The notes under the pieces are model-generated. The model worked only from the letters and a program-made list of their open reading frames with translations. It made no database searches and was not told the origin of the DNA. A stretch of DNA of 64,000 bases from an uncultured Eudoraea sp. (GTDB lineage Bacteria > Bacteroidota > Bacteroidia > Flavobacteriales > Flavobacteriaceae). Position numbers and translations under genes: made by a program. The stretch covers positions 496,001 to 560,000 of the forward strand of contig NZ_CANLGX010000001.1 of NCBI RefSeq assembly GCF_947490415.1, given 5' to 3'. Of this stretch, positions 14,116 to 17,529 are shown in pieces (the first letter of the stretch is position 1; every line of letters starts with the position of its first letter).

Positions 14116-16014
14116 ATGAGTGACGCCATTAAACACGAATGTGGAATATCTTTAATAAGGCTATTAAAACCTTTAGATTATTATAAGGAAAAGTACGGCA
14201 CTATTTTTTATGGTGTAAACAAGATGTATTTAATGATGGAAAAACAGCACAATCGCGGTCAGGACGGTGCAGGTTTTGCCAGTATTAAATTAGACATGGC
14301 TGCCGGAGAGCGCTATATGAGCAGAGTGCGTTCTGTAGAAACACAACCAATACAAGATATTTTTGCGCAGATTAATGACCGTATTAATACTGCTTTAAAA
14401 GAAAACCCTGAATATATAGACAATACAGATTTACAAAAAAAGAATATCCCATATATTGGTGAAGTACTCCTGGGGCATGTTCGATATGGGACTTTTGGAA
14501 AGAACAGTATTGAAAATGTACATCCTTTCCTTAGGCAAAATAACTGGATGCATAGAAATCTTATTGTTGCCGGTAATTTTAATATGACCAATGTTGATGA
14601 ACTCTTTGATAATTTGATACAACTGGGCCAGCATCCTAAGGAAATGGCAGATACCGTTACGGTCATGGAAAAAATAGGGCATTTTCTTGATGATGCCGTA
14701 GCAAAACTATACCGGCAAATTAAAAAGGAGGGCTATAATAAGATGGAGGCATCACCTTTGATTGCCGAAAGATTAAAAGTTTCCAAAATACTCAAAAAAG
14801 CTTCAAAGAATTGGGATGGTGGTTATGCAATGGCCGGGATGTTCGGGCATGGAGATGCCTTTGTGCTAAGAGACCCTTCAGGAATAAGACCTGCCTATTA
14901 CTTTAAAAATGACGAGGTAGTTGTAGTAGCTTCCGAAAGACCTGCTATTCAAACAGTTTTTAATGTCGGGTATGACGATATCAAAGAACTTGACCCCGGC
15001 AACGCATTAATTATTAAGAAAAATGGAACGGTAAGCGCTACTGAAATTTTAGAGCCAAAAGAAAGAAAAGCCTGCTCATTTGAACGAATATATTTTTCCA
15101 GGGGCAGCGATAAGGAAATATATCAGGAGCGCAAAGAATTGGGTAAGTTAATTTTCCCGCAAATATTGACTGCTATTGATGAAGATATTAGAAATACGGT
15201 TTTTTCTTATATCCCCAATACCGCAGAGACTTCTTATTTAGGAATGATCAAAGAAGCGCAGAATTATTTGAATAAGAAAAAAGAAGAACAGATCCTTAAA
15301 TTAGGACCCGGCATAACAAGAGTGCAACTAAATGAAATTTTAGATGTTCGCCCCAGAATTGAAAAAGTAGCCATAAAGGATGCAAAATTAAGAACGTTTA
15401 TTACACAGGATAGCAGCAGGGATGATCTCGTTGCACACGTTTATGATATTTCTTATGGCTCTGTAAACAAAAATGACAACCTTGTTATTATAGATGATAG
15501 TATTGTTAGGGGTACTACATTAAAGAAAAGTATTTTAAGGATTTTGGACAGGCTATCACCTAAGAAAATAATAGTTGTTTCCTCCGCACCGCAAATTCGC
15601 TATCCCGATTGCTATGGCATAGATATGGCTAAACTGGAAGATTTTATAGCTTTCAAAGCTGCGCTTGAATTGCATAAGGAGCAGAATTCAATGCAGAAAG
15701 TAGAAGAGATATATCATAAATGTGTTCAACAAATTCGCACCGCTGATAAAGATGTCGTTAATTATGTAAAAGATTTCTATCAGCCGTTTACCGCTGATCA
15801 AATATCGAAGAAAATTGGTGAGCTACTGAGCCCGGCAGACATTAAAGCTGAAGTGCAGATCATTTATCAAACTATTGAAAGTTTACATCAGGCCTGCCCA
15901 AAAAACCTGGGCGATTGGTATTTTACAGGTGATTATCCCACTCCCGGTGGAAACAGGGTTGTAAACAGGGCCTTTATAAACTTTTATGAGGGCAAAAACG
16001 AAAGGGCATATTAA
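14116..16014 (+). CDS. Long PurF-like amidophosphoribosyltransferase family protein
   Basis: A 632-residue class II glutamine amidotransferase fused to a phosphoribosyltransferase. Its N terminus, SDAIKHECGISLI, places a Cys9 where PurF has its processed catalytic cysteine. GHVRYGTFG and AGNFNMTN continue the glutaminase site. The PRPP loop is canonical (LVIIDDSIVRGTT). It is well over 100 residues longer than standard PurF (about 470-500), with extra C-terminal sequence and an insertion after HVRYGTFG. Bacteroidota often carry this form besides a normal PurF, so I do not assign purF. It could make phosphoribosylamine or a related product. A strong hairpin follows the stop. Confidence 0.82.
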   Translation: MSDAIKHECGISLIRLLKPLDYYKEKYGTIFYGVNKMYLMMEKQHNRGQDGAGFASIKLDMAAGERYMSRVRSVETQPIQDIFAQINDRINTALKENPEYIDNTDLQKKNIPYIGEVLLGHVRYGTFGKNSIENVHPFLRQNNWMHRNLIVAGNFNMTNVDELFDNLIQLGQHPKEMADTVTVMEKIGHFLDDAVAKLYRQIKKEGYNKMEASPLIAERLKVSKILKKASKNWDGGYAMAGMFGHGDAFVLRDPSGIRPAYYFKNDEVVVVASERPAIQTVFNVGYDDIKELDPGNALIIKKNGTVSATEILEPKERKACSFERIYFSRGSDKEIYQERKELGKLIFPQILTAIDEDIRNTVFSYIPNTAETSYLGMIKEAQNYLNKKKEEQILKLGPGITRVQLNEILDVRPRIEKVAIKDAKLRTFITQDSSRDDLVAHVYDISYGSVNKNDNLVIIDDSIVRGTTLKKSILRILDRLSPKKIIVVSSAPQIRYPDCYGIDMAKLEDFIAFKAALELHKEQNSMQKVEEIYHKCVQQIRTADKDVVNYVKDFYQPFTADQISKKIGELLSPADIKAEVQIIYQTIESLHQACPKNLGDWYFTGDYPTPGGNRVVNRAFINFYEGKNERAY

Positions 16015-16020
16015 CATTTT

Positions 16021-16058
16021 TATCGATGAAATGCACAATTTTGTGCGTTTCATCGATA
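16021..16058 (+). other. 18-bp hairpin after the PurF-like gene
   Basis: TATCGATGAAATGCACAA (16021-16038) pairs along its whole length (one U.G) with the arm at 16041-16058, leaving only TT between. No T-run follows on the plus strand, although TTTTTA precedes it. It may protect or process the mRNA end, or terminate weakly. It also marks the border of the sRNA locus. Confidence 0.6.
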
Positions 16059-16105
16059 ATATGTGCTATTTATCGGCTTTTTAGCTGCAGCGAACTAAAG
16101 GCGGT

Positions 16106-16113
16106 TACTTTAG
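16106..16113 (+). promoter_or_regulatory. -7 box of sRNA unit 1
   Basis: TACTTTAG (TAnnTTTG with one mismatch) ends exactly 5 nt before the core CCATAG. The same 5-nt distance occurs in all four units, which supports its reality. Confidence 0.6.
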
Positions 16114-16118
16114 ACCTG

Positions 16119-16189
16119 CCATAGCATAAGTAGGTTAAGTTCATGGTAAGATTTGGGGCAAAAAAGGTGGAGACTTCTCCACCTTTTTT
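16119..16189 (+). ncRNA. Tandem sRNA unit 1
   Basis: A predicted RNA of about 71 nt. The 40-nt core (16119-16158) consists of CCAT, the 20-nt segment AGCATAAGTAGGTTAAGTTC, ATGG, then TAAGATTTGGGG. CCAT and ATGG can form a short stem (5 bp counting a G.U) that displays the 20-nt segment as a loop. The terminator stem GGTGGAG-ACTT-CTCCACC, extended by A-T pairs, ends in six T residues. The core is identical to units 2 and 3, while the flanking DNA differs. I infer a trans-acting regulatory RNA; no function is known to me. Confidence 0.78.
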
Positions 16190-16274
16190 ATTTATAATTA
16201 ATTTTGATTTTATTTTTCCACACATTTAATACGACTTTTCTTCACCTATTATAGTATAATAGCCAGTCAAAGGT

Positions 16275-16346
16275 ATTTCAACCAATTAAAAAGAAGTTTA
16301 GCCAAAATTTTAAGGGACTCCAATGCATTAGCATACATTTGGTGGA
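16275..16346 (+). promoter_or_regulatory. Upstream control block of sRNA unit 2
   Basis: The -7 box TACATTTG (16334-16341, perfect) ends 5 nt before the core. From ATTTCAACC at 16275 to the core, the sequence is nearly identical to the block before unit 3. A CCAAAATTT element at 16302-16310 also occurs before unit 4 at almost the same distance from the box (22 versus 23 nt). Confidence 0.65.
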
Positions 16347-16414
16347 CCATAGCATAAGTAGGTTAAGTTCATGGTAAGATTTGGGGAAAAAGGCAGGTGA
16401 AAACCTGCCTTTTT
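16347..16414 (+). ncRNA. Tandem sRNA unit 2
   Basis: A predicted RNA of about 68 nt with the same 40-nt core as unit 1 (16347-16386), preceded by A so that ACCAT can pair with ATGGT. The terminator stem differs from unit 1: GGCAGGT pairs with ACCTGCC around a GAAA tetraloop and runs into five T residues. A perfect -7 box lies 5 nt upstream. The invariant core between changed flanks is the main evidence that the core is the working part. Confidence 0.82.
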
Positions 16415-16494
16415 ATATTATATGCCCTCTCCAAATACCTCCTTTCACATATAATTCAATTTTACACCTTTTATAATAAAATATCAGGTAGCGC

Positions 16495-16567
16495 ATTTCA
16501 ACCGATTAAAAAGAAGTTTAGCCAAAATTTTAAGGGACTCCAATACTATTAGTTTACATTTGGAGGA
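16495..16567 (+). promoter_or_regulatory. Upstream control block of sRNA unit 3
   Basis: TACATTTG at 16555-16562 lies 5 nt before the core. The preceding 60 nt duplicate the block before unit 2 apart from a few substitutions and a 1-nt insertion after CTCCAAT. Confidence 0.65.
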
Positions 16568-16636
16568 CCATAGCATAAGTAGGTTAAGTTCATGGTAAGA
16601 TTTGGGGAAAAAGGCAGGTGCAAACCTGCCTTTTTT
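16568..16636 (+). ncRNA. Tandem sRNA unit 3
   Basis: A predicted RNA of about 69 nt. Its core (16568-16607) is identical to units 1 and 2. The terminator GGCAGGT-GCAA-ACCTGCC ends in six T residues; the loop is GCAA instead of the GAAA of unit 2, so both are GNRA tetraloops. Together with its upstream block it looks like the most recent duplicate of unit 2. Confidence 0.82.
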
Positions 16637-16735
16637 ATTTCTGATTCTCAGTAAATTACAACTTTTAAGGTCAATATTTTTCTTCCTTTTCCAGCCTGAA
16701 GTATTAGTTGAAAGCCTAAAATTTACCAAAATTTC

Positions 16736-16766
16736 TTTGTTATTTCTCACAATACCAGTAATTTAG
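16736..16766 (+). promoter_or_regulatory. Promoter of sRNA unit 4
   Basis: TTTG at 16736-16739 and TAATTTAG at 16759-16766 are separated by 19 nt, a normal -33/-7 spacing for this phylum. The box ends 5 nt before the core, as in the other units. Confidence 0.6.
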
Positions 16767-16771
16767 TACTG

Positions 16772-16842
16772 CCATAGCATAAGTAGGTTAAGTTTATGGT
16801 AAGATTTGGGACGAAAAGGGTGGAGGCTTCTCCGCCCTTTTC
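16772..16842 (+). ncRNA. Tandem sRNA unit 4
   Basis: A predicted RNA of about 71 nt. The core (16772-16811) has two differences from the others: the base before ATGG is T instead of C, and the last G is A. The terminator is GGGTGGAG-GCTT-CTCCGCCC; relative to unit 1 a T-A pair has become T.G and an extra G-C pair is present, so pairing is kept while the sequence changes. A T-rich tract follows. It ends just before the superoxide dismutase terminator on the other strand. Confidence 0.78.
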
Positions 16843-16920: not shown

Positions 16921-17529
16921 TTACATATTTGAACTGTACAACTCAGCAACTTTATCCCAGTTGATAATATTAAAAAAAGCGCTAATATAATCTGGCCTTC
17001 TGTTTTGATAATTTAAATAATAGGCATGTTCCCAAACATCCAGTCCCAAAATTGGGTGGCCTCCACATCCGGTTCCAGGCATTAATGAATTATCTTGATT
17101 TGGTGTTGAGCAAACTTCTACCTTGCCTCCCTTATGTACACAAAGCCAAGCCCAACCAGACCCAAATCTTGTCGCTGCAGCTTTGCTGAAAACTCCCTTA
17201 AAGGCATCAAAAGAACCAAAGGCCTGATTGATGGCTGCAGCAAGGTCTCCGCTTGGCTCACCTCCGCCATCAGGGGACATTATTTCCCAATATAAGGAAT
17301 GATTGTAATAGCCTCCTCCATTATTGCGGACCGCAAGATTGGACATGTCTAAATTTTTCAATATATCCGTAATAGATTTATTTGCAAGATCTGTGTTCTC
17401 AATGGCTGCGTTAAGATTCGTAGTGTAGCCATTGTGATGCTTTGTATGGTGTATTTCCATAGTTCTTGCGTCAATATAAGGTTCTAATGCATCATATGCA
17501 TATGGTAGTTTTGGTAATTCAAATGCCAT
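16921..17529 (-). CDS. Superoxide dismutase (Fe/Mn type)
   Basis: Converts superoxide to oxygen and hydrogen peroxide in the cytoplasm. From the chosen start the protein has 202 residues, the usual size. The metal ligands are all visible: His in [10 protein letters not shown], His in NHSLYWEIM, and Asp and His in [16 protein letters not shown]. The glycine-rich SGWAWLCV is typical. The sequence does not let me decide between iron and manganese. A longer frame begins 11 codons upstream, but [19 protein letters not shown] is the standard N terminus. A perfect -7 box lies 34 nt upstream and a terminator follows, so it is monocistronic. Confidence 0.95.

Follow-up and report, generated by a model that had tools for sequence, protein, structure and literature searches.

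A conserved tandem array of predicted small RNAs in Flavobacteriaceae is complementary to the start of a small-protein mRNA and to candidate sponge RNAs

Introduction

Targets are known for only a few of the trans-acting sRNAs of Bacteroidota and, in the portions of the literature available to us, the best-studied cases come from Bacteroides (PMC11697453, PMC7366714). Among these, the FopS sRNAs, which associate with RbpB, act near the start codon to repress the translation of SusC, according to the accessible part of the report (PMC11697453). For Rfp18 of Flavobacterium psychrophilum, the available text places the pairing region in the third stem-loop and predicts metalloprotease targets; upon deletion of rfp18, two metalloprotease mRNAs decrease (PMC9723704). 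Outside the phylum, the sponge QrrX of Vibrio cholerae binds the Qrr1–4 sRNAs with the involvement of Hfq, and its transcription is separately regulated, as given in the sections of that paper at hand (PMC9732341).

A sequence-only reading of DNA from an uncultured Eudoraea sp. proposed that a tandem array of short repeats encodes a trans-acting multicopy sRNA. The present analysis supports that proposal, as complementary partner RNAs were found elsewhere in the genome, and transcription remains unproven. Our literature search, with the sources covered in part, returned no paper describing the array RNA, though the supplementary sequences of Rfp18 and of the F. columnare sRNA candidates (PMC5395568) were not compared.

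Results

The window, i.e., the whole 64,000-nt stretch analyzed here, contains a 40-nt core in four copies, with CCATAG starts at 16119, 16347, 16568, and 16772. Cores 1–3 are identical and core 4 carries two changes (C to T in GTTCATGG and the last G to A). Each copy is preceded by a −7 box of the type TAnnTTTG or TAnnTTAG whose 3′ end lies exactly 5 nt before CCATAG. All features of the array are on the plus strand. Copy 1 (16119–16189; core 16119–16158, terminator hairpin 16160–16189) follows the box TACTTTAG at 16106–16113, which is conserved over at least 295 copies; copies 2 (16347–16414) and 3 (16568–16636) both follow TACATTTG, at 16334–16341 and 16555–16562, respectively; and copy 4 (16772–16841; terminator GGGTGGAGGCTTCTCCGCCC) follows TAATTTAG at 16759–16766. 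A terminator-type hairpin and a T-run stand 3′ of all four, giving predicted RNAs of 68–71 nt with two predicted stem-loops each. The terminator sequences vary between copies with pairing retained. Folding of the four copies gave z-scores of −3.5 to −3.8, equalled by 0, 0, 1, and 0 of 200 shuffles. The core positions, the box spacing, and the terminators claimed in the sequence-only reading were all borne out, and its proposed Rfam check, run with Rfam 15 at the gathering score over the whole window, returned a single tRNA and no family at the array; sub-threshold Rfam matches there were mostly due to the terminator hairpins. Within the 3.89 Mb genome (18 contigs), a 23-nt pattern with up to three mismatches matched the four array places and no fifth, and the reversed 23-nt control gave no match in the same genome.

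The array is flanked upstream by a purF-like gene (14116–16014, plus strand), for which TIGR01134 is the best NCBIfam match at 135 bits, under the cut-off of 350, and downstream by a convergent Fe/Mn superoxide dismutase (SOD) gene (16921–17526, minus strand). An inverted repeat with 19-nt arms occupies 16020–16059, and TTTCATCGAT in its right arm starts 77 nt upstream of the search-pattern start of copy 1 (16125). The 50-nt region upstream of copy 2 (16275–16324, plus strand) is 98% identical to that upstream of copy 3 (16495–16544, plus strand), from which we infer duplication or gene conversion. Upstream of the last copy stands a separate conserved block (TTATTTCTCACAATACCAGTAATTTAG, window 16740–16766), as it does upstream of the last copies of several other arrays. 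Copy 4 may answer to a different signal than copies 1–3.

The distribution of the core was surveyed in 60 genomes using a 25-nt pattern with up to three mismatches. Matches were obtained in 26 genomes, our own included, all belonging to the same family as the window, and in 0 of 23 genomes from other families of the order; the reversed 25-nt control gave one match over the 60 genomes. In GTDB genomes, at least 118 stretches contain the core, their titles naming either Flavobacteriaceae genera (Maribacter, Zobellia, Aquimarina, Winogradskyella, Flavobacterium, Kordia, and others among the matches listed) or less precisely named MAGs. Pooled, the surveys hold at least 295 distinct core copies at no fewer than 139 loci. 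Chance is excluded, because the 25-nt pattern recurs in 26 of 60 genomes and, among the matches listed, 284 of the 295 distinct copies share one of four 34-nt cores. As the copies were collected with the 25-nt pattern, part of the invariance within it is built in by the search; GATTTGGGG and CCATAR, which lie outside the pattern, are still nearly invariant in the copies among the matches listed.

The neighborhood of the core is similarly stable. Among the matches listed, a purF-like gene lies upstream at 114 of 139 loci, a convergent SOD gene lies downstream at 98, and both are present at 82; no ORF was found upstream at 12 or downstream at 16 of these loci, partly as the loci end there. Judged by this context, the array is an orthologous locus rather than a local repeat. 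A minority of genomes have additional core copies elsewhere (e.g., G014, G015, G023, and G033). An exact search of IMG/VR viral contigs with a 22-nt core pattern gave no match, nor did a search of plasmids with copy 2. A mobile repeat is rejected, given that the neighbors are fixed in most listed loci and that neither the exact viral search nor the plasmid search produced a match. The sequence-only reading would have been refuted by a core confined to this genome as part of a mobile repeat; instead, a search of related genomes of the kind it suggested reveals a nearly invariant core at the same purF–SOD locus across many Flavobacteriaceae.

Two core forms, one base apart, were distinguished: long (GGTAAGATTT) and short (GGTAGATTT). 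Among the matches listed, 70 loci have only the long form (1–6 copies each), 63 have only the short form (1–3 copies each), and 6 have a mixed or aberrant form; at loci with at least three copies, 38 of 45 contain long-form cores only. In the terminator stem, GC, AU, and GU pairs interchange across 112 non-redundant copies from the matches listed, and standard pairs occur at two inner positions in 82 and 97 of these 112, the alignment being imperfect. The 5′ hairpin is nearly invariant, every pair being kept in 280–295 of the 295 copies among the matches listed, and its pairing therefore provides little independent evidence.

An unannotated small-protein gene located directly downstream of scoB (L270, G000:C1:928569, plus strand, in our own genome, G000) has a leader and start codon complementary to the core. 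The short form was then searched for complementary sites in 14 further core-bearing genomes, comprising ten short-form genomes, G036 (both forms), and the long-form genomes G021, G029, and G030. At three mismatches, 136 matches (self included) were obtained versus 124 in the control, so most of these matches are noise. Clusters of matches in several genera nevertheless proved to mark this one gene. Twenty stretches were fetched, of which six have the small-protein gene at the site and a seventh (L356, G036) has it just upstream; the other 13 (L350–L352, L354, L355, L357–L360, and L363–L366) were dropped. The gene was thus recognized in 7 of the 14 genomes, the remaining ones not having been exhaustively examined. 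As a separate observation, L350 and L351 (G016) are two occurrences of a dispersed repeat that includes a long anti-core segment, CCCCAAATCTACCATAACTTACC or a close variant of it.

Altogether the gene was recognized in ten genomes (G000, G006, G262, G014, G033, G022, G017, G018, G015, and G036; the loci outside our own genome are L269, L277, L347–L349, L353, L356, L361, and L362). A scoB-like gene lies directly upstream in all ten, and on this basis we take the small-protein gene as one orthologous locus; scoA and scoB were named by NCBIfam in our own genome only and by resemblance in the other nine. The encoded proteins span 25–42 codons as read, are mostly 40–42 aa long, and mostly end in a C-terminus like (T)KKLFML. 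Our own genome encodes a 35-aa protein, with CCCCAAATCTTAT in the mRNA leader. In G014 (L347), the frame is shifted, leaving 25 codons, and three leader sites are present. The one member searched against Pfam gave no match.

Anti-core segments lie in the leader and first codons of the gene. Core–leader duplexes from six genera range from −31.6 to −45.3 kcal/mol, with 0, 0, 1, 0, 0, and 0 of 300 shuffled cores pairing as well. These six leaders (G014, G033, G022, G017, G018, and G015) each contain 3–4 sites at ≤−12 kcal/mol, numbers matched by 0–9 of 100 shuffled leaders; those of G000, G006, G262, and G036 have 1–2 sites, which 14–59 of 100 shuffled leaders match and which are at chance level. 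Within 40 nt around the start, where no shuffle control was applied, weaker duplexes were obtained for G000 (−25.7 kcal/mol), G006 (−19.7), and G262 (−27.4; long form assumed). In this same interval, start-codon bases fall inside the optimal duplex in all ten genomes, with all three bases paired in nine and two in one. The sRNA 5′ end CAUAAGU pairs with ACUUAUG, start codon included, in the short-form genomes G014, G033, G022, and G018, and CCAUA(G) pairs with a UAUGG-containing stretch in G015, G000, G006, and G262.

The primary sites in the genus and 14-genome searches were detected by core-derived patterns. When only sites that played no part in detection and whose two energies lie at least 1 kcal/mol apart are compared, five of five prefer the long form; four of these are in genomes seen with the long form and one is in G262, in which the core was not seen. 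The 15 RNAs found only by a promoter repeat plus CCCCAAAT (described below) divide into 11 that favor the long form and 4 that favor the short form, the latter by <1 kcal/mol. With detection sites masked, the three short-form leaders differing by at least 1 kcal/mol all favor the short form, G014 leans to the long form by 0.9, and two are near ties. In G036, which has both forms, the leader favors the long form by 4.7. The clearly discriminating sites thus prefer the core form of their own genome, in few cases that are not independent of phylogeny.

The promoters of the sRNA contain TTT-rich elements, approximately 77 and 57 nt ahead of the start of the search pattern, with a 20-bp period (excess identity 0.25 versus ≤0.07 at other offsets). 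Among the matches listed, TTCATCGA occurs at −76/−77 in 34 of 136 first copies, including copy 1 of the window, and at the same place in 0 of 156 later copies. The motif is also found upstream of the small-protein gene in five of seven genomes examined, in other genera as well, with a repeat spacing nearer 21 bp by hand count. LytTR domains bind direct repeats of about 21 bp. Control of the sRNA and the small-protein gene by a single regulator is suggested and not proven, since the spacing is 20 bp in the former and nearer 21 bp in the latter.

Partner RNAs other than the small-protein mRNA emerged from a search of ten same-genus genomes with the reverse complement of the core (up to three mismatches). 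Of the 79 matches, 33 were the arrays themselves, and the remaining 46 compare with 36 in the control; support for the two RNAs described here, A and B, accordingly lies in their recurrence and not in the number of matches. These recurrent non-coding places were found in ten of ten (B) and seven of ten (A) genomes. Both resemble small-RNA genes, in that each combines an anti-core segment with a −7 box and an intrinsic terminator. The length is approximately 160 nt for A and approximately 75 nt for B, and a second RNA of this type, A′, lies approximately 400 bp from A. In our own genome, successive masking gave 4, 3, and 1 sites at ≤−12 kcal/mol in A, A′, and B, counts that were equalled by 1, 5, and 24 of 100 shuffled sequences, respectively. 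Pairing as good as that of the core was reached by 0 of 300 shuffled cores for each of these three RNAs and for the small-protein mRNA. A, A′, and B look like sponges of the core sRNA; sponge action itself is inferred, without expression data.

Upstream of A, A′, and B is a direct repeat, TTCACAACA-N12-TTCACAACA or a one-base variant, which is common to these RNAs and the small-protein gene in the genus and near relatives. Searched family-wide together with CCCCAAAT, the repeat gave 15 matches in 8 of 120 genomes, four of them in our own genome, and none in the control; the fourth own-genome match is the small-protein mRNA and not a sponge. The repeat on its own, with up to three mismatches, has 32 matches in our genome against 10 in the control. 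With up to two mismatches, 12 sites remain. In six cases the RNA that follows is matched as well by no more than 3 of 300 shuffled cores (0 for each of A, A′, B, and the small-protein gene; 2 for C3:232342; 3 for C8:37941), C5:1801 is marginal (22 of 300), and five lack convincing complementarity (28, 87, 161, 167, and 240 of 300). Locus L292 (G000:C3:232342, plus strand) contains a 32-codon ORF whose start codon falls in the anti-core segment AACCAATCTTACCATG, behind a direct-repeat variant.

RNA B is encoded between genes for a LytTR response regulator (PF00072 + PF04397) and a TPR-HisKA_2 histidine kinase (cluster L248, G000:C3:561423–562755, minus strand). This cluster also includes another terminated stretch that carries the direct repeat and no clear anti-core segment (site C3:561955). 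Of 30 genomes searched, five have a close ortholog of the LytTR regulator at E up to 1e-60, all of them long-form with 3–6 copies; none was found in the long-form genomes G021, G029, and G030. In G002 (94% complete; L260, L261) and G007 (60% complete; L256, L257), no array was found, though A and B are present; assembly gaps and true loss cannot be distinguished.

The start regions of 722 crudely called genes (~22% of the genome) are only weakly complementary to the core beyond shuffles, with 5 of 59 shuffled cores reaching the median, 17 of 59 the 5% quantile, and 8 of 59 the 0.5% quantile. The 8-mer sum (63 observed versus 49 expected) and 9-mer sum (20 versus 12.5) are suggestive only. A broad regulon, or general start-region targeting, is unsupported, the signal being weak and not significant over the 722 genes. 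A 20-mer antisense search of our own genome gave 3 non-self matches versus 7 in the control, i.e., no enrichment. In the genus, the antisense of the core 5′ half, ACTTAACCTACTTATGC, recurs at a single non-self site, which 3 of 10 genomes share.

The FopS family (RF04319) scored 17.2–20.2 bits in the window and did not reach its cut-off of 56; the alignment falls in the FopS seed (UUCAUGGUA--AGAUUU). With stricter filters, FopS exceeded the cut-off in 0 of 198 Bacteroidota genomes, the Bacteroides ihuae control passing. RRM_1 had no match in our own genome at E up to 0.001, and two control genomes, one of them B. ihuae, were positive. Pairing of the core with 30 susC start loci, of which those on the minus strand were not reoriented, yielded no common pattern in the readable part; L178, a plus-strand SusC leader, pairs at −22.9 kcal/mol. 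Membership in FopS is rejected on the sub-threshold score and on the absence of an RRM_1 match in the genome at that E-value. The one sub-cut-off FopS match in another genome (L160) reads as the reverse complement of an ordinary gene start, is probably due to chance, and was also set aside. Elsewhere, a FopS-like sequence was seen by eye immediately downstream of a tRNA-like sequence in a viral contig (L163), and the exact 21-nt FopS seed occurs in 16 viral contigs.

Discussion

We consider it likely that the small protein is kept from being translated by a multicopy trans-acting sRNA, which co-induced sponges in turn titrate. The complementarity, the array anatomy, its conservation and locus, the core-form match, the shared repeat, and the sponge-like genes were computed directly. 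RNA production is inferred in the absence of transcript data; each copy would give rise to a ~70-nt RNA with a hairpin region at its 5′ end, followed by an intrinsic terminator. The ~34-nt core is predicted to pair with the leader of the separate small-protein mRNA, its 3′ part GAUUUGGGG anchoring on the leader sequence CCCCAAAUC and the sRNA 5′ end (CAUAAGU or CCAUAG) spanning the start codon, such that ribosome entry would be blocked. Tandem copies may provide dosage against multi-site leaders. For Eudoraea and its close relatives, induction of the small-protein mRNA probably goes through a LytTR-type two-component system that turns on A, A′, and B at the same time. These three RNAs would titrate the sRNA and release the small-protein mRNA; the identity of the repeat-binding protein is an inference. 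Our confidence is tempered by G002 and G007, which have A and B and no array, and by the weaker leaders of G000, G006, G262, and G036.

A more elaborate version, which we offer only tentatively, is a double lock throughout Flavobacteriaceae: start-codon-covering tandem sRNAs, multi-site sponges induced through LytTR in one lineage, a common TTCATCGA regulator, and a membrane-active or signaling peptide as the product. The occurrence of TTCATCGA in sRNA promoters and in several small-protein promoters may create an incoherent feed-forward loop.

The direction of control could also be reversed, with the core RNAs being the sponges and A, A′, and B the true regulators. The latter do have the appearance of RNA genes that are conserved, terminated, and equipped with promoter elements of their own, and A and B persist in two genomes without a detected array. 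This arrangement is nevertheless improbable, as the core is family-wide whereas direct-repeat RNAs occur in only 8 of 120 genomes, a close ortholog of the LytTR regulator is present in just 5 of 30, and the pairing of short-form leaders is independent of A, A′, and B.

There is likewise only a slim chance that the locus encodes a trans-encoded antitoxin of a type I toxin–antitoxin-like module, in which a harmful small protein would be silenced by the tandem sRNAs. Type I antitoxin RNAs are antisense over the start of a small ORF. The predicted pairing similarly places an antisense RNA across the start codon of a small ORF, the sRNA is multicopy, and five of the small proteins have a basic C-terminus, their 18 final residues carrying a net charge of +1 to +5. 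Their hydropathy is modest, however (0.48–0.96 in the top 19-residue window of five proteins), and that of the usual membrane toxin is above this range. The partners also reside at two separate chromosomal loci, and the core had no match in the viral contigs or plasmids searched.

Blockage of translation, rather than a positive effect, is itself inferred. Pairing that activates or stabilizes the small-protein mRNA without repression has a precedent in the positive effect reported, in the part of the source available, for another flavobacterial sRNA, rfp18 (PMC9723704), but we judge it very unlikely here because start-codon bases lie within the best duplex in ten of ten genomes. A FopS-type regulator of SusC/glycan-uptake mRNAs is scarcely tenable: the consensus UUCAUGGUAUUAGAUUU resembles UUCAUGGUAAGAUUU, the alignment to FopS is equalled by only 4 of 1500 shuffled cores, and L178 pairs at the energy given above, yet the score of ~20 bits is far from the gathering score of 56, no RRM_1 (RbpB-type) protein turned up in the genome, in contrast to the Bacteroides control, and SusC starts read correctly show no consistent pairing.

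With the preferred reading, translational blockage by a titratable multicopy sRNA, Flavobacteriaceae gain a conserved sRNA for which an orthologous target is predicted, the match of core and site form as an evolutionary test, and candidate sponges, and a small-protein gene beside scoB is newly revealed. If the pairing is confirmed, RNA-based control in the family becomes testable by a two-gene reporter, and copy number versus sponges becomes a case study of sRNA dosage. The sRNA and small-protein mRNA pair, with decoy RNAs in some members, suggests an undescribed control circuit of the family.

As with Rfp18, the array sRNA is conserved in flavobacteria; as far as the accessible text allows (PMC9723704), it appears to differ in having two predicted stem-loops and a complementary segment in the core, whereas Rfp18 is reported to pair through its third stem-loop with metalloprotease mRNAs, the sequences not having been compared. 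Like FopS and GibS, in the portions of the reports available (PMC11697453, PMC7366714), it is a multicopy Bacteroidota sRNA with a terminator, a seed near start codons, and a similar 15-nt stretch; in contrast to these dispersed sRNAs, the array copies are tandem, the predicted target is different, the family score is sub-threshold, and no RRM_1 protein was found. The FopS seed and the core both read as anti-start-codon sequences, making convergence possible. Unlike type I antitoxins, the array is unlinked to its predicted target, and the encoded peptide lacks strong hydrophobicity. A functional class with a similar mechanism is that of Qrr/QrrX, of which the sequence-only reading was reminded by the redundancy of the copies: by analogy, the mechanism would combine several related sRNAs with a dedicated complementary RNA, as the available part of the QrrX report describes (PMC9732341), without kinship having been tested. 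Two features of this class are present: several near-identical predicted sRNA genes, each with a box and terminator, and the separate complementary RNA genes A, A′, and B. It departs from the described part of the Vibrio system in that its copies are tandem, its predicted target is a small-protein leader, and its sponge-like RNAs share a promoter repeat with that target.
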